A stretch of DNA of 31,689 nt from a virus. A model generated the notes under the pieces. It did not search any database, had not been told where the DNA came from, and saw only the letters and a program-made list of their open reading frames with translations. A program made the translations under genes and the position numbers. The stretch covers positions 1 to 31,689 of the IMG/VR virus record IMGVR_UViG_3300020205_000061; one strand, 5' to 3'. Below, piece by piece: positions 1-31,689 of the stretch. The stretch's first letter is position 1. Each line of letters opens with the position of its first letter.

Positions 1-99
1 GCAATATATCCAGCATCTTCTAAGACTTTTCCACCAGACATAATGTACTTATGAACTCGCATCCGTTTGACTCGTTTCTGTCTAACTTCAGTCGTTCCA
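1..99. repeat. Terminal direct repeat, left copy (circular assembly overlap)
   Basis: These 99 bases are identical to the last 99 bases of the window. The portal reading frame that runs off base 1 continues in the same frame at base 31590, so the repeat is best read as the overlap of a circular or circularly permuted assembly. It is not likely to be a biological terminal repeat, because it lies in the middle of a coding sequence. Confidence 0.95.
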
Positions 100-914: not shown

Positions 915-2141
915 CTACCATCTTTTAATATTTGCAATAGGTGTAAAAACAGCAGGTTTTACCATCTGTGATCGTCTTACTCCTTCACAAGCATATCGTA
1001 AAGCATCGATGACATGATTCTTTTTATCCTCAAGCAATGGTAAGATTCTACCAGTTAAAGGGTCTGATTTGTATGAGTATAAACTCAATTCATCAATCGT
1101 ATGCTGGCATCTTGGATGCACAACAATATCATAATTTTTTAAAAACTCGATGCCTTCCTCTACTGACTTTGCACCTTTGACTGCATTCATGATCTTAGGA
1201 AAGCCATTTTTCTTCATGTGACTAATCGTTTCTGGTCTTGCTGAATCAGCAACAATAGGCCATTTCTCAGATTCAGGTATCTGCATAAACAACTCTGGAG
1301 TATTCACAATCTCGCATCCAACCATATATGCTTCATAGTCAATGTATAGAGTTCTGCCTACAATATGGCATCTGACTAAGACAGTTGGGTCTATTGAGAA
1401 TCCCCAGTCAGCACCTAATCTGTGAATTGCATCAGGTGCTGCTTCGAATTCGTCAATCTTCCAGTTTCTAAAGACTCTTGCATTGCCATTTCTGAGGTAT
1501 TGTCCTTGCCAAACGTGCTGATACTTATCAGGGTCTCGCCTCTGATCGTACTCCATTTCATCCTTGAGGACTTCAGGAAACCAAGGATTATCAGCAAAGT
1601 TCACCTTGATAACTGTTGCATCCTTTGGTGGTTCTGGGCCACGCAATAGAAAATCTACAGGATCGGATATTTGTCTTGGATTCCAAGTAAACCAAAGTTC
1701 TGAATCAGGCTTACGAATTGTCGGTCTTAATAGATCGAGTGAGGTTTGACTAAGGCTTTGGGCTTCCTCCACCCATGCACAATCGTATCCTTCTAGCGAT
1801 TTAATCGAGTCGGCTGTATGATTCTGCATACCTTGAAAGATAATCGCACCATCGCCCTGCCTTGATTTGATTACTGAATCCTGTACTTCAAAGTAAAACC
1901 CAGCGTTCATTGCCTCGATTTTAGTTTCAAGTAACCTTTTTACGGACTGGTTAAGGGATTTCTGTATCTCACGAACACAAACTGATCTTCGTTTCTGATT
2001 CATGATGTGCATTTCAATCATCAGTTCAGCAAATAAATGTGACTTTCCAGAGCCTCGACCACCCCAAGCACCTTTGTATCTTGATGGCTCAAGTAAAGGA
2101 ATTGCCCAATTAGGTGTAGCAAGTTGGAGTGTTTCAGCCAT
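915..2141 (-). CDS. terL: Terminase large subunit (PBSX/Terminase_3-like)
   Basis: This is the packaging motor ATPase plus headful nuclease, which acts at the portal. From the ATG at 2141 the protein is 408 aa. The Walker A motif GGRGSGKS is at about residues 27-34, and a Walker B strand ends in the catalytic pair EE at about 125-126 (YDCAWVEEAQ). The RNase H-like nuclease half shows three acidic positions: D245 (GADWGF), D299 (VADSARPE) and D379 (NHVIDALRY). A TTG at 2162 would add 7 residues, but neither start has a good Shine-Dalgarno, and the ATG gives the usual short overlap (8 nt) with terS. It lies between terS and portal, as in P22-like and many other tailed phages. The headful mechanism is inferred from the relatives, not visible in the sequence. 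Confidence 0.93.
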   Translation of the reverse strand: MAETLQLATPNWAIPLLEPSRYKGAWGGRGSGKSHLFAELMIEMHIMNQKRRSVCVREIQKSLNQSVKRLLETKIEAMNAGFYFEVQDSVIKSRQGDGAIIFQGMQNHTADSIKSLEGYDCAWVEEAQSLSQTSLDLLRPTIRKPDSELWFTWNPRQISDPVDFLLRGPEPPKDATVIKVNFADNPWFPEVLKDEMEYDQRRDPDKYQHVWQGQYLRNGNARVFRNWKIDEFEAAPDAIHRLGADWGFSIDPTVLVRCHIVGRTLYIDYEAYMVGCEIVNTPELFMQIPESEKWPIVADSARPETISHMKKNGFPKIMNAVKGAKSVEEGIEFLKNYDIVVHPRCQHTIDELSLYSYKSDPLTGRILPLLEDKKNHVIDALRYACEGVRRSQMVKPAVFTPIANIKRW

Positions 2142-2481
2142 TCTTAATGATGACTCGTTCAATCTTATTAAATTCTAAGGGTTTGCCATCTGCACCAGTT
2201 ATTTCGTGAGCATGAGTTTCTTTCCATCTTGCTCTAGTCTTTAGCCAAAAGATTGCTGCAGCAGTATTGCCCTTCTTTGCCTGATTAAATAATGTTCCTG
2301 CAATAGCTGAGTTTGCATCAATTCTGCCTTCGTCTAGTTCTTCTTGATAATATTTGACCAGAGTATCAGAGGATATTTTTATCCTTAAAGCGATGTCTTC
2401 ATGAGGAACTCCAAGAGCAGATAATCGCCTTGCAGTATCTCTATCTTGTTGAGTTGGTTCATGTTTTTTGCCTTGAGCCAT
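2134..2481 (-). CDS. terS: Terminase small subunit
   Basis: This 115-aa protein has an N-terminal helix-turn-helix-like segment (ARRLSALGVPHEDIALRIKI, about residues 18-37) followed by a helical stretch that would drive ring assembly. The C-terminus (ARWKETHAHEI and onward) resembles many phage small terminases. It would recognise the packaging site and hand DNA to TerL. The ATG at 2481 has GGAG seven bases upstream and starts one base away from the stop of the Mom-like gene. It overlaps terL by 8 nt, so the two are translationally coupled. The call rests on size, HTH and position directly before terL. Confidence 0.85.
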   Translation of the reverse strand: MAQGKKHEPTQQDRDTARRLSALGVPHEDIALRIKISSDTLVKYYQEELDEGRIDANSAIAGTLFNQAKKGNTAAAIFWLKTRARWKETHAHEITGADGKPLEFNKIERVIIKNG

Positions 2482-2482
2482 T

Positions 2483-3184
2483 TTATAACTCCGAAAGTTC
2501 TGTGGAGCGTATGGATAGGTGTTGCACCTTCGCTGTGTCGATGGAATCGATCATTGCCTGCTTCATACGCTTTGGGTAAGGCTTTGCTAGTTGTTGCACT
2601 TGTTTACGCATATTATCATCTAATGGCATTAAATATCTATGTTTGCCTTTTGTATAAAATATTGTTGCATTTTTGTCTAAATGTTTTTTGACTGCTTCAA
2701 TGTTTTGTTTTATGCCTTTGCTGTGAATAGATTTAGGATGTGTTTTTTTACCATTAACAATAAAAGCCCCCATTGTATTGGCATTTTTTAATCCATCATA
2801 AATCCAATTTGTTGCCTGATATATGCCACCATGATGGTTTTGATCTGCATCTGAATATGAAACAATTAAACGCAGTTCAGGTGATTGTTTTTTTAAAAAT
2901 TTGATAGCAAAAGCAAGTATTTTACTAACATATGTTTCATGTCTTTTTAATGCAATTCTTACTAATTCACATCCTTCATCAGCATTTAATCCAAATGGTT
3001 TAAGCATATTATTGTTTGCACCACGACCAAATATCACAACCCCAATAAATTTATCATTTTCCCATGCACCAACTTTAACTAATTTACCAACTGGTATAGT
3101 TTTACTATAATGCCAATTTTCACACGCATATTTAGATGCTTCGTGACTTGCCCAGTCAATTTTAAGATTAACTTTGTCTTGCAT
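2483..3184 (-). CDS. mom: Mom-family DNA modification protein A
   Basis: This 233-aa protein matches the Mom family (phage Mu Mom, GNAT-derived fold, converts adenine in DNA to N6-methylcarbamoyl-adenine and so blocks restriction). Visible signatures are HY at residues 25-26 followed by a proline at 31, a GVVIFGRGANNN strand-loop (48-59), ELVRIAL (73-79), SYSDADQNHHGGIYQATN (109-126) with WIYDGL after it, and GKHRYLMPL further on. The ATG at 3184 is preceded by GGGAAAGAATTTG; a GTG at 3199 without Shine-Dalgarno would add five residues. It overlaps the ParB-like gene by 17 nt and is followed directly by terS, so it should be made with packaging functions. A second, divergent Mom-like protein is encoded at 4761-5414. 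The chemistry in this phage is inferred from the family. Confidence 0.85.
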   Translation of the reverse strand: MQDKVNLKIDWASHEASKYACENWHYSKTIPVGKLVKVGAWENDKFIGVVIFGRGANNNMLKPFGLNADEGCELVRIALKRHETYVSKILAFAIKFLKKQSPELRLIVSYSDADQNHHGGIYQATNWIYDGLKNANTMGAFIVNGKKTHPKSIHSKGIKQNIEAVKKHLDKNATIFYTKGKHRYLMPLDDNMRKQVQQLAKPYPKRMKQAMIDSIDTAKVQHLSIRSTELSEL

Positions 3185-3671
3185 CAAATTCTTTCCCACA
3201 ATGAGGACAACTAACCCATTTTGGGTCTAATTCATCTAATTTGCCCTGATCATCTTCAGTCGCTGCATCAAAATTTACACCATTTATAAATGCACTTAAT
3301 TCATCAGCATTGAATCCTATAACTTCAAGATTAAATCCATCTGTATCTAGTTGTGATATTTCTAAACTAAGCAATTCAGTGTCCCATCCTGAATTCAATG
3401 CCAATTTATTATCGGCAATTATGTAAGCCTTCTTTTGAGTTTCTGTCATATCTGAGCAGTCAAGCGTTGGAACTTTATCTAGTCCAAGTTTTCTTGCTGC
3501 CAATAATCGACCATGACCAGCTATTATTCCTACTCCATCTACCAAAATAGGATTTCTAAATCCAAATTCTTTTATTGAAGCTGCTAATTGTGCCACCTGG
3601 GCATCATCATGCGTTCGTGAATTATTTACATAAGGGATTAGCTTAGATACTTCTATTTCTTTGATTTGCAT
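3168..3671 (-). CDS. ParB/Srx-fold protein with C-terminal CxxC
   Basis: This 167-aa protein has an N-terminal ParB-like nuclease/CTPase-fold domain (about residues 1-120). The box motif is IIAGHGRLLAARKLGL around 49-64, then IADNKLALNSGWD and a GFNADELSAF segment that is typical of the ParB domain found fused to phage DNA methyltransferases. Here no methyltransferase follows: the protein ends with an acidic linker and a CPHCGKEF knuckle (C155, C158). Two cysteines alone would bind zinc only as a dimer or with a partner. The gene starts with ATG at 3671 and overlaps the Mom-like gene by 17 nt. ParB-fold genes are known neighbours of DNA-modification genes, so a role in targeting or regulating modification is likely but inferred. 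Partitioning is unlikely, since there is no ParA. Confidence 0.82.
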   Translation of the reverse strand: MQIKEIEVSKLIPYVNNSRTHDDAQVAQLAASIKEFGFRNPILVDGVGIIAGHGRLLAARKLGLDKVPTLDCSDMTETQKKAYIIADNKLALNSGWDTELLSLEISQLDTDGFNLEVIGFNADELSAFINGVNFDAATEDDQGKLDELDPKWVSCPHCGKEFDARQS

Positions 3672-3674
3672 AGG

Positions 3675-4004
3675 TTATTTTATCTCAATTTTAATCATAC
3701 CAGCTATTTCTTGTGCAATTTCTATATTTATCTTAGTAAAACATCGATCATCAATCTCTAATGCTAAACACATTCCATCTAAACCAGACTTAATACTTGC
3801 TAACATATTATCCAAGTCCATCCATCGTCTGTTTGGTTTGTAAAAGACAATACTTAGCTCTGAGTAATTACCTTTTTCTATATTAGCCTCTTTTGTTGTC
3901 CAGTAGCAAATATCTTTGTAAATAGCCTTCTTCTTGGCTTTTTCGTGATAATGACAACTACTATTGGGGTTCAATTCTTTAAAATACCAAGGGAAAGTAA
4001 TCAT
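3675..4004 (-). CDS. RusA-like Holliday junction resolvase
   Basis: This 109-aa protein is close to E. coli RusA in length (120 aa). The signature segment RRWMDLDNMLASIKSGLDG (59-77) gives the DxDN pair D63/D65 and K72, and EIDD (83-86) gives the further acidic residues used for metal binding and junction cleavage. RusA-type enzymes resolve branched replication and recombination intermediates, which terminase cannot pass. The ATG at 4004 overlaps the stop of the preceding nuclease gene in an ATGA junction. It sits between the Ref-like nuclease and the ParB/Mom pair, and completes the recombination set found in the rightward operon. Confidence 0.85.
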   Translation of the reverse strand: MITFPWYFKELNPNSSCHYHEKAKKKAIYKDICYWTTKEANIEKGNYSELSIVFYKPNRRWMDLDNMLASIKSGLDGMCLALEIDDRCFTKINIEIAQEIAGMIKIEIK

Positions 4005-4270
4005 AATATAGCCAATGTCAATTCTAATAATTCTTCTTCAGTCGTGGAATACAACTCCTCAAATTTTTTTCTGCCTAAGCCATGAATACCTGTACTTGAA
4101 CCTCGATGGTGGATTGGGCAAAGTCCAATTACAGGTGCAGTATCTCTCTTGCCAGCTTTACGAATATGATGGATTTCAGTCGGAGTATCTTCAATCTTTA
4201 AGACAAATCGGCATAGACTGCAACCAAGTCTTGCAACTTTGTCGTAATGTGATCTCTGGGCTTTATTCAT
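4001..4270 (-). CDS. Ref-like HNH nuclease (RecA-dependent nuclease family)
   Basis: This 89-aa protein starts at the ATG at 4270. It carries CSLC (17-20), EIHHIR (32-37) with a downstream GKRD, and GLCPIHHRGSSTGIHGLG (49-66). This is the pattern of the phage P1 Ref family: a His-Cys HNH nuclease fold with structural cysteines C17, C20 and C51 and nuclease histidines around H34/H35 and H63. P1 Ref cuts DNA within RecA-bound displacement loops; a similar role in phage recombination is inferred. A TTG seven codons upstream is possible but less likely, because the ATG has GCAGG just upstream. It overlaps the preceding 53-aa gene by 8 nt and RusA by 4 nt, so all three are coupled. Confidence 0.8.
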   Translation of the reverse strand: MNKAQRSHYDKVARLGCSLCRFVLKIEDTPTEIHHIRKAGKRDTAPVIGLCPIHHRGSSTGIHGLGRKKFEELYSTTEEELLELTLAIL

Positions 4271-4424
4271 AATCCTGCAATTTATGAGCAATATCCTCTA
4301 ACTTTTGAGCCTGATCTGTAATATCTATCGCTATTTCGTAGGCTTTTGAATACTGTTGTTCGTTACAAGCATCTGAATAGTTCTTTAAAAGATGCTGCAA
4401 TATTAAAAATGGATGATCAATCAT
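4263..4424 (-). CDS. Small helical hypothetical protein (53 aa)
   Basis: I read this short frame directly: ATG at 4424, TAA at 4263-4265. The product begins MIDHPFLILQHL and ends KLQDYE. It is almost entirely predicted helix with heptad-like spacing, is acidic, and has a single Cys. The start lies in an ATGA overlap with the stop of the 110-aa gene and has AAGGAATGTT in front; the end overlaps the Ref-like gene by 8 nt. That packing on both sides supports a real gene. I do not recognise the family. Confidence 0.65.
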   Translation of the reverse strand: MIDHPFLILQHLLKNYSDACNEQQYSKAYEIAIDITDQAQKLEDIAHKLQDYE

Positions 4425-4753
4425 AACATTCCTTTTCTACGGTTAGCACTAAGTGTCTGAAACATATCAAAAATTCTTGTCTGTGAATTGCGTTCATTAT
4501 CCAAAATCTTATATTCCTCTAAAGCCTCTATCCAATTTCTAACTGCAATATCGTATGAAATGCTTGCTATGGCTTTTTCTTGTCGTTCTGCTACTGTCCC
4601 ATCAGACTTCAAAAATTCATGAGCCTTGGCTTGTTTCATAGCTTCCTTGAGGTATTCAAGATGACTATATAGTTTTCCATGTTTAATGTCTGTATCTGCT
4701 AGTTTATTAAATGCTTCTGAAATATCATCTTCATCTAAGTTATTAAAGTCCAT
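4421..4753 (-). CDS. Hypothetical protein (110 aa), helical
   Basis: This is an acidic, helix-rich protein with no motif I can name. The N-terminus is DEDD-rich, the middle (HLEYLKEAMKQAKAHEFLKS) looks like a coiled helix, and the C-terminus ends ANRRKGML. The ATG at 4753 has AAGGAAAAT upstream. It lies 7 bp after the first Mom-like gene and overlaps the next small gene by 4 nt. Proteins of this size and pattern commonly sit among phage replication and recombination genes, but no function can be assigned. Confidence 0.75.
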   Translation of the reverse strand: MDFNNLDEDDISEAFNKLADTDIKHGKLYSHLEYLKEAMKQAKAHEFLKSDGTVAERQEKAIASISYDIAVRNWIEALEEYKILDNERNSQTRIFDMFQTLSANRRKGML

Positions 4754-4760
4754 ATTTTCC

Positions 4761-5414
4761 TTAAAATAAAATTAATTGGGTTGCAACTTTGCCACCTGAG
4801 TTATATTTTTTTGAATCTCCTTTAGGGTATGGTTCACTTTTATACAAAAATTTAGATAAAAGAACCTTTTTATCGTTTTTAGTGCCATGAAAATAAATGT
4901 ACCTATGCTTTCTACTTCTTGGTTTGTAATAAAAATCATCTTTATATTTTTCTTTTAATTGTTCTAAATCTAATCCTTCACCAATATGTCTACTATGTTT
5001 ATGTTCCATGCCTTTAATAGTCCAATCAGTTCTAATTGCTGATAAACCTGTATATATAAAGTTTGTTGCTTGATATACATACCCTACATGGCCTTGCTCT
5101 GTGTCAGCGTAAGAAACAACTATTGTAGGTTTTGGCAATAATTTAATTGAATTGCTAACTAAAAATGAAGATTGGTTCTTTTCATTTTGCATTAAACATA
5201 AACGATTTAATTCCAAAACTTTCTCAGAATAATCTTTGCCACATATACCTATGCACAAATTTGGACTAGCTGGCATACCATAAGTAACAACCCCTATCAA
5301 ATCATTGTTTACAAAAAGACCAAAAGCATAACTTATTGATGGAATACGCTTTGCATAATGTTTTTGTATTAACCAGGAATAACAATCATCACTTTTAATA
5401 GGCAATACTTTCAT
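4761..5414 (-). CDS. mom: Mom-family DNA modification protein B
   Basis: This 217-aa protein has the same key blocks as the Mom-like protein at 2483-3184 but belongs to a different branch. HY is at 19-20 with P25, GVVTYGMPAS at 41-50, ELNRLCL at 68-74, SYADTEQGHVGYVYQATN at 101-118, then FIYTGL, an SRKHRYIYF block and SEPYPKGDSKKY near the C-terminus. Outside these blocks the two have little in common. The ATG at 5414 has AAGGGTAATT upstream. It follows the lambda P-like gene by 2 bp, so it would be expressed with replication rather than with packaging. The modification it makes and its substrate are inferred from the Mom family; an acetyltransferase-like activity on another substrate is the main alternative. 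Confidence 0.82.
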   Translation of the reverse strand: MKVLPIKSDDCYSWLIQKHYAKRIPSISYAFGLFVNNDLIGVVTYGMPASPNLCIGICGKDYSEKVLELNRLCLMQNEKNQSSFLVSNSIKLLPKPTIVVSYADTEQGHVGYVYQATNFIYTGLSAIRTDWTIKGMEHKHSRHIGEGLDLEQLKEKYKDDFYYKPRSRKHRYIYFHGTKNDKKVLLSKFLYKSEPYPKGDSKKYNSGGKVATQLILF

Positions 5415-5416
5415 AA

Positions 5417-5806
5417 TTACCCTTTATAAGTTTTTTTATTAATCATTTCACGCATAGTTCTGAATTGTTCCTTAACAAACTCTTTGTCTTGAGAAGAATA
5501 ACCAGAACTATATCCAATCTCAGAATGAGGTTTACTAGGGATTCGTTCACCAGTCATGCAAAGTTTCTTCACAGCTAAAGCACTAGGAATAAAGGTATCA
5601 TCCATTGAATAAATGGCTTGATCGAGTTTAGGTCTGTAGGTTAAATAAATACCTAATACTTCTTTCCAAGTATCTCGAACTATCTCAAGATCAACTCCTT
5701 CCCAATGTCTGATAAAAGTTGCACCATAGATAGCACCCATTCGAGCAAATAAGTAATCTAATCCTTGATCTGGATCACAAAAATCACTTTCCAAGTAGTC
5801 TGACAT
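5417..5806 (-). CDS. Replication protein P-like (putative helicase loader)
   Basis: This 129-aa protein has the layout of lambda P-type and related phage replication partners. An N-terminal LFARMGAIYGATFIRHW segment (about 19-35) is followed by a W-x3-L helix, then DDTFIPSALAVKKLCMTG (69-86), where related proteins have a WPPSLPEFRALC-like block. Proteins of this type recruit the host DnaB helicase to the initiator. The ATG at 5806 has a perfect AGGAGG eight bases upstream and lies inside the 3' end of the initiator gene (23-nt overlap), as with lambda O and P. The similarity is a pattern match rather than a strong family hit, so the helicase-loader role is an inference supported by position. 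Confidence 0.55.
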   Translation of the reverse strand: MSDYLESDFCDPDQGLDYLFARMGAIYGATFIRHWEGVDLEIVRDTWKEVLGIYLTYRPKLDQAIYSMDDTFIPSALAVKKLCMTGERIPSKPHSEIGYSSGYSSQDKEFVKEQFRTMREMINKKTYKG

Positions 5807-6512
5807 CTTTGTTGCCTCCTATGATTCCTCTGGTTAATCCTGACATGACTGTGCTATTTCTTTCCCCTATGGTTTTTTTCTCTTTAATCCACTCAGCTTT
5901 AAATCCTCTCCAACCATTTTGACAACATAGCATCATGACTTGCTCAAGAGTTAGATTAGCCTTTTGCCCTTCTTTTGCTAAACCATTGATTGCAGTTTGA
6001 GTAACTGGTGCTTTCAATCCTTTGCGTAACTTACAAAAATCTTTAAAGACTTCATCACTAACACCTTCAGGTGTAATAGTATTTATATTGGGTATTGGGT
6101 TAATGGGTATTGGGTATTGGGTATTGGGTAGCATACCGATTGCATTGCATTCGGATTGCGTTTGCAATGCGTTCGCATCAATTCCCTTATTCTTCCTAGT
6201 CCAACGAGCATTAGCACTTGCCCTAGCACTCTCTGATTTTGCATAAAGATGAGCCAATTCTTTATCACATCGAGTATGAATGTAACCTTTTTCAGTCAAT
6301 ACAAAGAAGTCAGTTAATACATTTTGTAGCGATTGTTGTTCGTCTGCATTGCGAACGCTATGCGAACGCATCAATTTCGCAATATCATTAGTTAAAGGTT
6401 GTTCATCCAAATAATAAGTATCAAGTAATTGTCTATAAATCCCATGTTCCAACAATGTTAAATGGCTTGTATCTTTACGATAGTCTCCAATATTATGCTG
6501 ATAGTAGTGCAT
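5784..6512 (-). CDS. DUF1376-type replication initiator (O-like)
   Basis: This 242-aa protein has an N-terminal DUF1376 winged-helix-like domain (residues 1-75: YYQHNIGDYRKDT, then LTLLEHGIYRQLLDTYY). A helical basic region with ASANARWTRKNKG follows, then a Pro/Asn/Ile-rich linker (LPNTQYPIPINPIPNINT). The C-terminal helical domain contains GWRGFKAEWI. DUF1376 proteins occupy the place of lambda O in many phages. The ATG at 6512 has GGAGAGTGAT in front and overlaps the Cro-like gene stop by none; a TTG at 6524 is less likely. The DNA of this gene carries two clusters of 11-bp repeats and a run of TATTGGG repeats, so the origin may lie inside the gene, as it does in lambda O. Confidence 0.78.
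   Translation of the reverse strand: MHYYQHNIGDYRKDTSHLTLLEHGIYRQLLDTYYLDEQPLTNDIAKLMRSHSVRNADEQQSLQNVLTDFFVLTEKGYIHTRCDKELAHLYAKSESARASANARWTRKNKGIDANALQTQSECNAIGMLPNTQYPIPINPIPNINTITPEGVSDEVFKDFCKLRKGLKAPVTQTAINGLAKEGQKANLTLEQVMMLCCQNGWRGFKAEWIKEKKTIGERNSTVMSGLTRGIIGGNKDVRLLGK
6086..6128. repeat. Tandem TATTGGG heptamers
   Basis: TATTGGG occurs five times (6086, 6093, 6108, 6115 and 6122), with one degenerate 8-bp unit, TTAATGGG, at 6100. It encodes the Pro/Asn-rich linker of the initiator on the other strand. The 7-bp period does not follow codons, which suggests slippage or DNA-level function. It directly abuts the 11-bp iteron cluster. Confidence 0.85.
6136..6179 (+). repeat. Iteron-like cluster 1: four tandem 11-mers
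   Basis: Four back-to-back 11-bp units start at 6136, 6147, 6158 and 6169: CCGATTGCATT, GCATTCGGATT, GCGTTTGCAAT and GCGTTCGCATC. They fit a consensus GCGTTYGCATT with one or two mismatches each. The period is not a multiple of three and the encoded residues are not repeated, so selection at the DNA level is likely. Candidate initiator-binding sites of the replication origin. Confidence 0.7.
6348..6369 (-). repeat. Iteron-like cluster 2: two 11-mers in opposite orientation
   Basis: Read on the minus strand from 6369, this holds GCGTTCGCATA and GCGTTCGCAAT in tandem, each matching the GCGTTYGCATT consensus of cluster 1 in 10 of 11 positions. The two clusters face each other across about 170 bp, all inside the initiator gene. 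This supports an origin with bidirectional binding sites. Confidence 0.65.
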
Positions 6513-6513
6513 A

Positions 6514-6714
6514 TCACTCTCCAAATAGGTCAGGTCTAAGCATCTCTTTTGTCAATCTACCCTGAGATAAATTGTTTAGTTTGCGTAAATGTTTAATAGG
6601 TATTTGTCCTCTCGCCATCCAGTTATAAATTGCAGTATTTCTAACACCTAAATGCTTTGATAGTTCATCTAAAGTGCCAAATTCTGCTTGTAACATATTC
6701 TTAATTTCGTCCAT
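6514..6714 (-). CDS. Cro/YdaS-like HTH regulator
   Basis: This 66-aa protein has a complete helix-turn-helix. TLDELSKHLGVRNTAIYNWM (about residues 14-33) is followed by RGQIPIKHLRKLNNL and ends LRPDLFGE, the usual ending of small Cro/YdaS-type repressors of phages. It is the first gene of the leftward operon. The ATG at 6714 has a perfect AAGGAGG six bases upstream. An inverted repeat at 6736-6755, just upstream of its own start, is the likely operator, so autorepression and control of the divergent early operon are expected. No CI-like partner is present. It is followed by the initiator gene, with 1 bp between stop and start. Confidence 0.85.
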   Translation of the reverse strand: MDEIKNMLQAEFGTLDELSKHLGVRNTAIYNWMARGQIPIKHLRKLNNLSQGRLTKEMLRPDLFGE

Positions 6715-9079: not shown

Positions 9080-9273
9080 CTAAAGGAGTCTTTTTTGTAA
9101 TAACAATGTGGATTGTATTCTGTGGCTTCATTATTTATTTGACTGAAGTTAGTCGAAAAGAGGAAGTTTTTAAGTTTAACTGCAACAACCTGATTGGTGG
9201 TTGGCATCCAGACATCCCAAAGAAGTTTGCTGAATTATGTGCTGAAGCTAAAAAAGAAAGGAACGACAGATGA
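9076..9273 (+). CDS. Small membrane-anchored protein (65 aa)
   Basis: This protein has a single N-terminal membrane span (about residues 5-22, VFFVITMWIVFCGFIIYL) followed by a charged soluble tail with two cysteines and an ELCAEAKKERNDR end. It has 4-nt overlaps with the sigma-like gene upstream and the next gene downstream. No family recognised. Confidence 0.7.
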   Translation: MTKGVFFVITMWIVFCGFIIYLTEVSRKEEVFKFNCNNLIGGWHPDIPKKFAELCAEAKKERNDR

Positions 9274-9473
9274 AACCATTTGCATACATATCAGAACATG
9301 GTGTTTTATTTAAAGAATTACCACCTAGTCCTTGGTTTAAATTAACACCGTTATATAGAATGCGTGAATTAACTTATGAGGAAATATCAGATATTCGTGA
9401 TAAACATTTAACACCAAAAGAATGTGATATTTATACATTTGCTAGAGCCATCTTAAAAGCAGCGAGTGAATAA
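9270..9473 (+). CDS. Conserved phage hypothetical protein (67 aa), paralogue 1
   Basis: This 67-aa protein starts with a short beta segment (FAYISEHGVLFKEL) that includes a PLYRM motif. It then has the block ELTYEEISDIRDKHL and ends with YTFARAILKAASE. An LT-x-EEI block followed by FARAI is common in small phage proteins of unknown role. The last 37 residues align with the end of the next protein. ATG at 9270 has AAGGA seven bases upstream. Confidence 0.75.
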   Translation: MKPFAYISEHGVLFKELPPSPWFKLTPLYRMRELTYEEISDIRDKHLTPKECDIYTFARAILKAASE

Positions 9474-9709
9474 TGACTGAATCCAGAGCATATATAAACG
9501 AAATAGAAAATGAACAAACAATTATTATGAATCCTAATATATTGCCTACTCAAGAAGAATGGCAATTAGTTTGTACGATGGTTAAACAACATGAACTAAC
9601 CGATGAGGAAATAAAAGAAGTCTACGGAGAACATTTTGATGTGAAGAATTGTGACTGGTTGCATCTTGAATGTATTAGAGCCATATTAAAAAAAGCGAGA
9701 GAGAAATGA
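9473..9709 (+). CDS. Conserved phage hypothetical protein (78 aa), paralogue 2
   Basis: The C-terminal half (ELTDEEIKEVYGEHF, then CIRAILKKAREK) matches the same block of the preceding protein, so the two look like a diverged tandem duplication. The N-terminal half is different and acidic. The start overlaps the upstream stop (TAATG), and the end overlaps the exonuclease by 4 nt. An internal ATG at codon 19 lacks a ribosome site. Confidence 0.72.
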   Translation: MTESRAYINEIENEQTIIMNPNILPTQEEWQLVCTMVKQHELTDEEIKEVYGEHFDVKNCDWLHLECIRAILKKAREK

Positions 9710-10323
9710 TATATAAAGAAATAGAACAGGGAACTGATGCTTGGTTGCAGATTAGAAAAGGTAAGGTAACTGCTAGTCGTGTAGCAGATGTAATGGCAAA
9801 AACAAAGACTGGTGTTTCAGCATCAAAAGGCAATTATCTAATTGAACTAGCCTTACAAAGGGTTACAGGGGTTATAGAAGTCTCTTATACCAATGATGCT
9901 ATGCAATGGGGTAAGGATAACGAACAGACTGCTAGAACAGCGTTTGAGGTTGCTCACCAAGTCTTTGTTGATCAAGTAGCATTTGTCGATCATCCTACGA
10001 TTAAAGACTTTGGTTGCAGTCCTGATGGCATTATTGGTGATTCTTTGCTCGAACTCAAGTGTCCGTATCAATCAGCAGTCCATTGGTCATATTTTAAAGA
10101 TGGTTGCCCATCTAAATACTATACGCAAATCCAAGCCCAAATGAGTTGCACAGGTGCTAAGTCAGTCTGGTTTGTATCATTCGACCCTCGTATGCCAGCT
10201 CAATCACAGTTATATATTGAAGAAGTTTTAAGAGAAGAAGAATTTATTAAGAAGATGGAAGAAGAAGTTTTGAAGTTTTTGAATGAAGTAGAAGTAGAAG
10301 CAAATCTAATGAAAGGTGAATGA
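9706..10323 (+). CDS. YqaJ/lambda-type exonuclease
   Basis: This 205-aa protein matches the YqaJ viral recombinase family, a PD-(D/E)XK nuclease that digests one strand 5' to 3' from double-strand ends (lambda Exo type). The N-terminal QGTDAWLQIRKGKVTASR block (8-25) is diagnostic. The catalytic core shows E73, the SPDG loop with D107, and E116-L-K118. In this family it works with an annealing protein, here the DUF1071 protein at 7419-7967. The C-terminus ends in a long acidic helix with many Glu. It overlaps its neighbour upstream by 4 nt; the next ATG starts 2 nt after its stop. Confidence 0.88.
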   Translation: MIYKEIEQGTDAWLQIRKGKVTASRVADVMAKTKTGVSASKGNYLIELALQRVTGVIEVSYTNDAMQWGKDNEQTARTAFEVAHQVFVDQVAFVDHPTIKDFGCSPDGIIGDSLLELKCPYQSAVHWSYFKDGCPSKYYTQIQAQMSCTGAKSVWFVSFDPRMPAQSQLYIEEVLREEEFIKKMEEEVLKFLNEVEVEANLMKGE

Positions 10324-30416: not shown

Positions 30417-31689
30417 CTAAACCATATTTTGCTGATTGACAACAGGTTGCACAATTTCACTTCCTGCTATCTGTTGGACTGCTTGAGCATTCTGAATTGC
30501 AATATTCTGCACAGTTTCGTCTACTTTACCCAAAGTTTCCAAAGTTTGTGCTCGTTTTAGTTCAGCAGTAGCTATCGTTTCAACTGTATCTGCTCTTGCT
30601 TTGGCTGCCTTAGCTATTGCTTCTTCTGCTGCAGCTTGTAAATAAGTAGCATTCGGGTCTTCAATCTTACCTTGCATTTCAGCCTGTAATTCTTCAGCTT
30701 CAACATCGGTAGGCTTAACAACACCCATCCTCAATAGTTTCTTACGGAAATAAGCATTCGCATCGCCTACTCCTTCACCTTCCATGTTCATCATTGCCAT
30801 TGCTGTTAAGACTTGAGCAGTTTCAGGATCATTAGTAATCTGTAACATTCCTGTTAATGCTCGAACTGTCGCAGCTCGTTTACTACTGGATGATGGCCCA
30901 ACATCAGCAACTACATCAAAAGTCGCATCTGATAAGTCATTTGTAGTCTTAATCTCGCCAGTCTCCTGATCGATCATTGGTTGCATCAGTTCAATCATGC
31001 CAGCTTCACCAGTCGGTGCAATCGTCTTCATCTTACGATTTTCTTCGGTGTAGATGTCTTTTGCCATCGATAACCAAATCTCGCCACAGCGTTTCATGCC
31101 CTTGGCAAAGTTACTCATATAAATAAATGATTGCATATCAACTCTGGTCTGTATCATTTCAACTGCTTTACCTGATACTCCAGACACCATTTTGTCAGCA
31201 CCTTGAGGATTACCCAAAATCTCTTGCATATCGGACTCAGTAACTGCTAGAAGTGCAGCCATTGCCGGTGGAATTTGAGGAGACTTTGTATAAGCAACTG
31301 GGCCACTAACTGTAGTTGAACCATCAGCACCAGTAATCGGATTGACTAACAAATAAGGGTAATCCCTTAGATTATCTTCAGCCCACATGAGTTGATGACC
31401 AGCCACCTGTTCAGGCAATAGAATCGGTTTCTCAATAGATGATAAGGCAGAAATCTCACCTAGTTTTGATAGTTGCATATTCTTGAGTCGTTGAGCATCT
31501 TTAGCCAAACGAACTGCACCCATGCACCTTTCAATGTTATCCACGAACCAACGCTTGCCATAAACAACTACGATTGGAATACACTTGCCAGCAATATATC
31601 CAGCATCTTCTAAGACTTTTCCACCAGACATAATGTACTTATGAACTCGCATCCGTTTGACTCGTTTCTGTCTAACTTCAGTCGTTCCA
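30417..31689 (-). CDS. Portal protein, C-terminal part (P22 gp1-like); begins at 899
   Basis: This is the rest of the portal gene that starts at 899. Bases 31591-31689 repeat bases 1-99, so the unique part is 30417-31590. The stop is TAG at 30417-30419. The middle has NNIERC-like and WAEDNLRDYPYLLVNP segments typical of P22-type portals. The C-terminal 120 residues form an Ala/Gln/Glu-rich helix (YLQAAAEEAIAKAAKARADT) that may correspond to the helical barrel of P22 portal. An internal ATG at 31652 is not the start: the frame is open beyond it. Together the parts give 690 aa. Confidence 0.9.
   Translation of the reverse strand, partial: GTTEVRQKRVKRMRVHKYIMSGGKVLEDAGYIAGKCIPIVVVYGKRWFVDNIERCMGAVRLAKDAQRLKNMQLSKLGEISALSSIEKPILLPEQVAGHQLMWAEDNLRDYPYLLVNPITGADGSTTVSGPVAYTKSPQIPPAMAALLAVTESDMQEILGNPQGADKMVSGVSGKAVEMIQTRVDMQSFIYMSNFAKGMKRCGEIWLSMAKDIYTEENRKMKTIAPTGEAGMIELMQPMIDQETGEIKTTNDLSDATFDVVADVGPSSSSKRAATVRALTGMLQITNDPETAQVLTAMAMMNMEGEGVGDANAYFRKKLLRMGVVKPTDVEAEELQAEMQGKIEDPNATYLQAAAEEAIAKAAKARADTVETIATAELKRAQTLETLGKVDETVQNIAIQNAQAVQQIAGSEIVQPVVNQQNMV
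31591..31689. repeat. Terminal direct repeat, right copy (circular assembly overlap)
   Basis: Identical to bases 1-99. Removing one copy closes the genome at 31,590 bp and makes the portal gene whole in one frame. Confidence 0.95.

Follow-up and report, generated by a model that had tools for sequence, protein, structure and literature searches.

Introduction

The Mom enzyme of phage Mu, whose product is N6-carbamoylmethyl-adenine, disguises the DNA of that phage from restriction enzymes, and Mom has been studied mainly as this single enzyme with a short, loose target. The virus record IMGVR_UViG_3300020205_000061, whose whole stretch of 31,689 nucleotides was analysed here (the window), raises the question of why one phage would carry two divergent Mom genes, called MomA and MomB in the following. 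A first-pass annotation, made from the sequence alone, had suggested that the two proteins could add different groups, act on different sequence contexts or act at different times.

Both proteins belong to the Mom family

The two open reading frames noticed in the first-pass annotation (2483-3184 and 4761-5414) are real and lie on the minus strand, which that annotation had omitted. MomA comprises 238 aa when read from a GTG start at 3199, and an internal ATG at 3184 gives the shorter form chosen earlier (Table 1). In profile searches both proteins fall inside Mom: PF25680 (Pfam Mom, cut-off 27.1 bits) is matched by MomA with 154 bits (E=5e-45, model positions 2-202 of 202) and by MomB with 140.8 bits (E=6e-41, positions 4-202 of 202), and phrog_1384 is matched with E=4e-60 and E=3e-59, respectively, all far beyond chance. 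Every Mom block quoted in the annotation is present, namely HYSKTIP in MomA and HYAKRIP in MomB, SYSDADQNHHG and SYADTEQGHVG, YQATNWIY and YQATNFIY, and KHRY in both. The top fold match of both AlphaFold2 models (mean pLDDT 85 for MomA and 80 for MomB) is 8bv8, a crystal structure of the S124A form of Mu Mom, with Z 19.3 over 181 residues for MomA and Z 19.1 over 174 residues for MomB, while the next GNAT follows at Z 12.2 and 12.5. Judging by these models, both adopt the Mom variant of the GNAT fold and resemble Mu Mom more than they resemble other GNATs.

Although family and fold (Z 19) are shared with Mu Mom, identity to it is only ~21-28%. In an alignment of MomA and MomB with Mu and 16 other sequences, the complete invariant set (H58, Y59, E108, L109, R111, S146, D149, G156, Y159, A161, N163, G168, H183 and Y217 in Mu numbering) is kept in both, as is the equivalent of S124, the residue changed in the S124A enzyme that is inactive according to PDB entry 8bv8. 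Both proteins are apparently intact, with no sign of decay in their sequences. The statement that they are very different elsewhere is borne out by an identity of 27% between MomA and MomB and by their positions in two deep clades.

Table 1 Features of the window discussed in the text.
Feature	Position	Strand	Basis
Terminal repeat, left copy	1..99	.	exact 99-bp match; right copy 31591-31689
Closely packed gene run	915..6524	-	ORF table and family matches
Terminase large subunit (terL)	915..2162	-	PF04466; 77% to ct3Oc712, 68% to PBR31
Terminase small subunit (terS)	2134..2481	-	phrog_309
MomA, Mom-family DNA modification protein, ParB-linked clade	2483..3199	-	PF25680 154 bits, phrog_1384, 8bv8 Z 19.3, clade A in tree
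Exchanged MomA segment, candidate specificity region	2651..3010	-	residues 59-178 of ATG form; comparison with L017
ParB_N-domain protein with C-terminal CPHCG knuckle, predicted MomA partner	3168..3671	-	PF02195, phrog_620 / phrog_498
MomB, second Mom-family protein, 217 aa, stand-alone clade	4761..5414	-	PF25680 140.8 bits, phrog_1384, 8bv8 Z 19.1, clade B in tree

A complete genome with both genes in one run

The terminal repeat lies inside the portal gene, and the portal open reading frame, cut by the contig ends, is in frame across both of them; the window is therefore a single, complete genome of ~31.6 kb, which excludes a joining of two fragments. Its coat, portal, scaffold and terminase genes form a P22-like set. 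The nearest relative is Caudoviricetes sp. ct3Oc712 from Manatee Spring, with 66% identity in the coat protein besides the similarity in terL; Xanthomonas phage PBR31 is also related through terL (68%), and the coat protein of Pseudomonas phage PfAn1 (Lake Baikal) is 53% identical. DNA-level comparison with GenBank phages found no close relative. From the P22-like relatives, our guess would be a gammaproteobacterial host.

Eleven genes on a single strand, spaced by at most 15 nt or overlapping, make up the run that holds both Mom genes, in the order primosomal-like, orf129, MomB, orf110, orf53, RecA-dependent-nuclease-like, RusA-like, ParB-like, MomA, terS and terL, and the portal gene comes next after a gap of 15 nt. 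MomA sits between the ParB-like gene, which overlaps its start, and terS. MomB lies four genes upstream of the ParB-like gene and adjoins two genes leading to the DUF1376/primosomal protein. As far as position is concerned, the earlier description of one copy near replication genes and the other near packaging genes is thus accurate. Expression at different times finds no support, because the one closely packed run holds both genes; scans of the window gave no excess over chance for promoters (20 found, 29 expected) or terminators (3 found, 4 expected). At the head of the minus-strand run (6514-6714) is a small HTH protein with a carph-isopro domain, likely a regulator.

Two clades, one of them linked to ParB

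A tree built from 154 Mom proteins places MomA with the Moms of Enterococcus phage phiEf11, Arthrobacter phage Martha and Microbacterium phage Appa (clade A, support 0.97-0.98), whereas MomB groups with those of Listeria phages, Bacillus phage Riggi, Acinetobacter phage JeffCo, and Proteus and Staphylococcus phages (clade B, support 0.83-0.87). The Mom of phiEf11 is 61% identical to MomA, and the Moms of Listeria A511 and LP-114, Riggi, JeffCo and Proteus PM87 are 42-45% identical to MomB. Among the differences fixed between the clades, one adjoins the YQATN block (G120 in A, Y112 in B) and others lie in a loop (P63 and L66 in A, G56 and G59 in B).

These fixed differences by the catalytic block and in the loop, the deep divergence, and the many donors served by the GNAT fold would all fit an arrangement in which one of the two enzymes, more likely MomA together with ParB, uses another acyl group or another base. 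Such a division of chemistry appears quite improbable, as neither enzyme has lost any of the residues that are invariant between Mu and the two clades, and no extra biosynthetic gene was recognised among the families searched. The idea of a second, unknown chemistry in the first-pass annotation is accordingly left with no positive evidence, although the fixed differences at the catalytic block (G120 against Y112) would be compatible with another donor or another product.

The clades also differ in their gene neighbourhoods. A ParB_N-like gene occurs within 400 bp of mom at 85 of 88 clade-A loci and at 0 of 115 clade-B loci (Fisher p ~2e-54, the loci not being fully independent). At all 86 clade-A loci that could be evaluated (mom is at a contig end in the other two), the ParB gene immediately precedes mom and has the same orientation. 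The phages phiEf11, Martha and Appa share both the clade and the upstream ParB-like gene with MomA, but unlike the window they have no second Mom detectable by our searches, and A511, LP-114, Riggi, JeffCo and PM87 each have a single Mom with no adjacent ParB. Phage Mu also differs from the window, with one Mom whose translation is controlled by Com and, in its annotation, no ParB beside mom.

The ParB-like protein of the window (167 aa) matches ParB_N plus a zinc knuckle only. Identification as a ParB of a ParABS partition system was rejected (TIGR00180, 26.7 bits against a cut-off of 58.45), and the genes searched included no recognisable ParA. A different connection is offered by phage fusions of ParB_N to N6/N4 methyltransferases, such as that of ct3Oc712 (MW202867; L318:15252-16511). 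The fusion occupies the slot before terS in which the window has ParB plus MomA, its ParB part is 55% identical to the ParB of the window, and the gene after it is 49% identical to the window's terS. In these fusions a SAM-type methylase is joined to ParB, whereas the window has a separate GNAT-type Mom; no Mom was found in ct3Oc712. Because a fused ParB-N6/N4 methyltransferase fills the same slot in the nearest named relative, we infer that the ParB-like protein would be a shared front end for interchangeable modification enzymes. Two carriers of MomB-type genes (L087 and L096) likewise have ParB-methyltransferase fusions instead of ParB plus MomA. When methyltransferases were searched for more broadly, relatives of SAM-methylases turned up near Mom at only 1 of 87 clade-A and 9 of 115 clade-B loci, so that MomB plus a ParB-methylase is an occasional and not a general combination among MomB carriers. 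Published work is broadly in line with this view: phage ParB-fold proteins frequently occur as fusions with N6/N4 methyltransferases, the NTP bound varies among ParB folds, and GTP is the ligand of one bacterial fusion of ParB with an acetyltransferase (PMC12704722); a Bacillus ParB-methylase has been reported to nick DNA (PMC5512222).

Exchange of the middle segment of MomA

Both genes are also present on L017, a 4.8-kb contig from a sister phage. Its MomB protein is 100% identical to that of the window, the DNA of MomA is 70% identical, and that of the other genes 80-98%. The divergence of MomA is concentrated in its middle: each flank (residues 1-58, residues 179-206) retains 89% identity, while residues 59-178 show 50%, 67% and 15% identity in three parts, the most extreme being residues 132-178 (2651-2791) with 15%. 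In this variable segment the window resembles another locus, L006 (82%), and the sister phage resembles L072 (90%). The same segment is the most variable one between pairs of clade-A proteins, with 44% identity against 69-78% elsewhere. As MomB is identical while the middle of MomA has been swapped in the sister phage, these comparisons suggest an exchangeable specificity region and a switching of target specificity. Alternatively, the variable segment could respond to a partner or an inhibitor and not to DNA sequence. Together with the ParB link in only one clade, the exchange supports the different-contexts idea of the first-pass annotation.

Phages with more than one Mom

The annotation had implied that a phage with two Moms is unique, which does not hold for IMG/VR: of the 149 environmental virus records with Mom, 18 contain a double or triple set of Mom genes clearly over the cut-off (2 of 50, 12 of 50 and 4 of 49), and one further record (G062) is marginal. 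Since the 149 records came from similarity searches and include many fragments, they should not be taken as a random sample or a complete census; the 18 correspond to ~13 separate combinations by tree groups. In named phages a second copy is almost never detected, as three Mom queries against 50,697 GenBank phage records matched 205 records at 205 places, 297 at 298 and 325 at 325. A scan of genome contigs (51 loci) gave no clear double Mom, and those flagged look like single genes split by frame. Within the limited literature covered, no paper on two Mom genes in one phage was found, which makes the novelty of multi-Mom phages provisional.

Partner identities in multi-Mom records are mostly 19-34% (50% in L060 and 45% in L133), and such low values indicate that the sets were assembled across clades and did not arise by recent duplication. 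The combination of A and B is seen in the window and its sister contig only. That a multi-Mom phage unites a ParB-linked with a stand-alone Mom, as the window does, is a genuine feature and to some degree an unexpected one. The three-Mom records L122 and L168 each contain one long-branch copy (9252-9947 and 4696-5433) that has lost invariant residues, D149 (to G) in L122, and G168 and H183 in L168.

Two rather different explanations of the pair can be weighed against these observations. In the first, MomA and MomB would be redundant through recombination, with the same product and the same target, brought together by mosaic exchange and kept for now without any division of labour. Phage genomes are mosaic, MomA has been exchanged between sister phages, and one copy suffices for most Mom phages. 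Redundancy is nevertheless unlikely, since every invariant residue is kept in both copies, the pair recurs in the sister contig, and multi-Mom sets nearly always mix different clades. In the second, the two proteins would form a mixed dimer within one modification complex, perhaps with ParB. Overlapping adjacent pairs of Mom genes in five records (L060, L122, L129, L133 and L168) and the common direction of both genes in one run of the window could be read this way. We regard a mixed dimer as very unlikely, as 1.5 kb and five genes separate MomA from MomB, and MomA-type and MomB-type genes are usually found alone, from which it follows that each works without the other.

A proposed model of two Moms with different targeting

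The explanation to which we give slightly more credence than doubt, based on the sequence comparisons above, is that both Moms are active enzymes, probably with the same chemistry and different targeting, MomA acting with ParB, and that they protect more jointly. Both would modify adenine at N6 by the Mu-type reaction (addition of carbamoylmethyl) but in different sequence contexts, and the pair might thereby shield the genome against a wider range of restriction enzymes than one of them could. MomB would act by itself, while MomA would act with the ParB-like protein encoded upstream as a DNA- or NTP-binding front end, as in ParB-methyltransferase fusions. MomA residues 132-178, between YQATN and KHRY, would help to set the target and be exchanged between related phages. 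Activity, product and protection, the functional partnership with ParB and the role of the segment in specificity are what we infer from conserved residues, gene neighbourhoods and exchange patterns. Allelic divergence alone, or dosage, could also maintain two copies.

A bolder possibility, and a doubtful one, is that the two Moms make different modifications, or that MomA is a ParB-guided, NTP-switched modifier whose target is switchable via the exchangeable segment. Phages could then build multi-layer disguises from interchangeable Mom and methyltransferase modules. Multi-Mom phages, a ParB-coupled clade and an exchangeable segment would make Mom specificity testable and supply natural variants. 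Through them, Mom would also be connected with the ParB-fold modules of phage modification and anti-restriction, a class that is growing.

Minor observations

The Mu Mom target consensus is SASNY. The window contains 1344 such sites against 1478 +/- 32 expected, a mild depletion that carries no weight, both strands of a coding-dense genome having been counted. The product of Mu Mom is a glycinamide, and glycyl-tRNA was considered as a possible donor. The idea was set aside as a weak lead, as ARAGORN revealed no general pattern over 109 loci, with no tRNA in the window and mixed tRNAs elsewhere. A tRNA-Gly lies directly after a ParB-linked mom in two unrelated phages (L101:3681-3755 and L100:3624-3696); Microbacterium phage Appa has tRNA-Gly after mom, and so does Salinibacter phage B2_17 according to its annotation.
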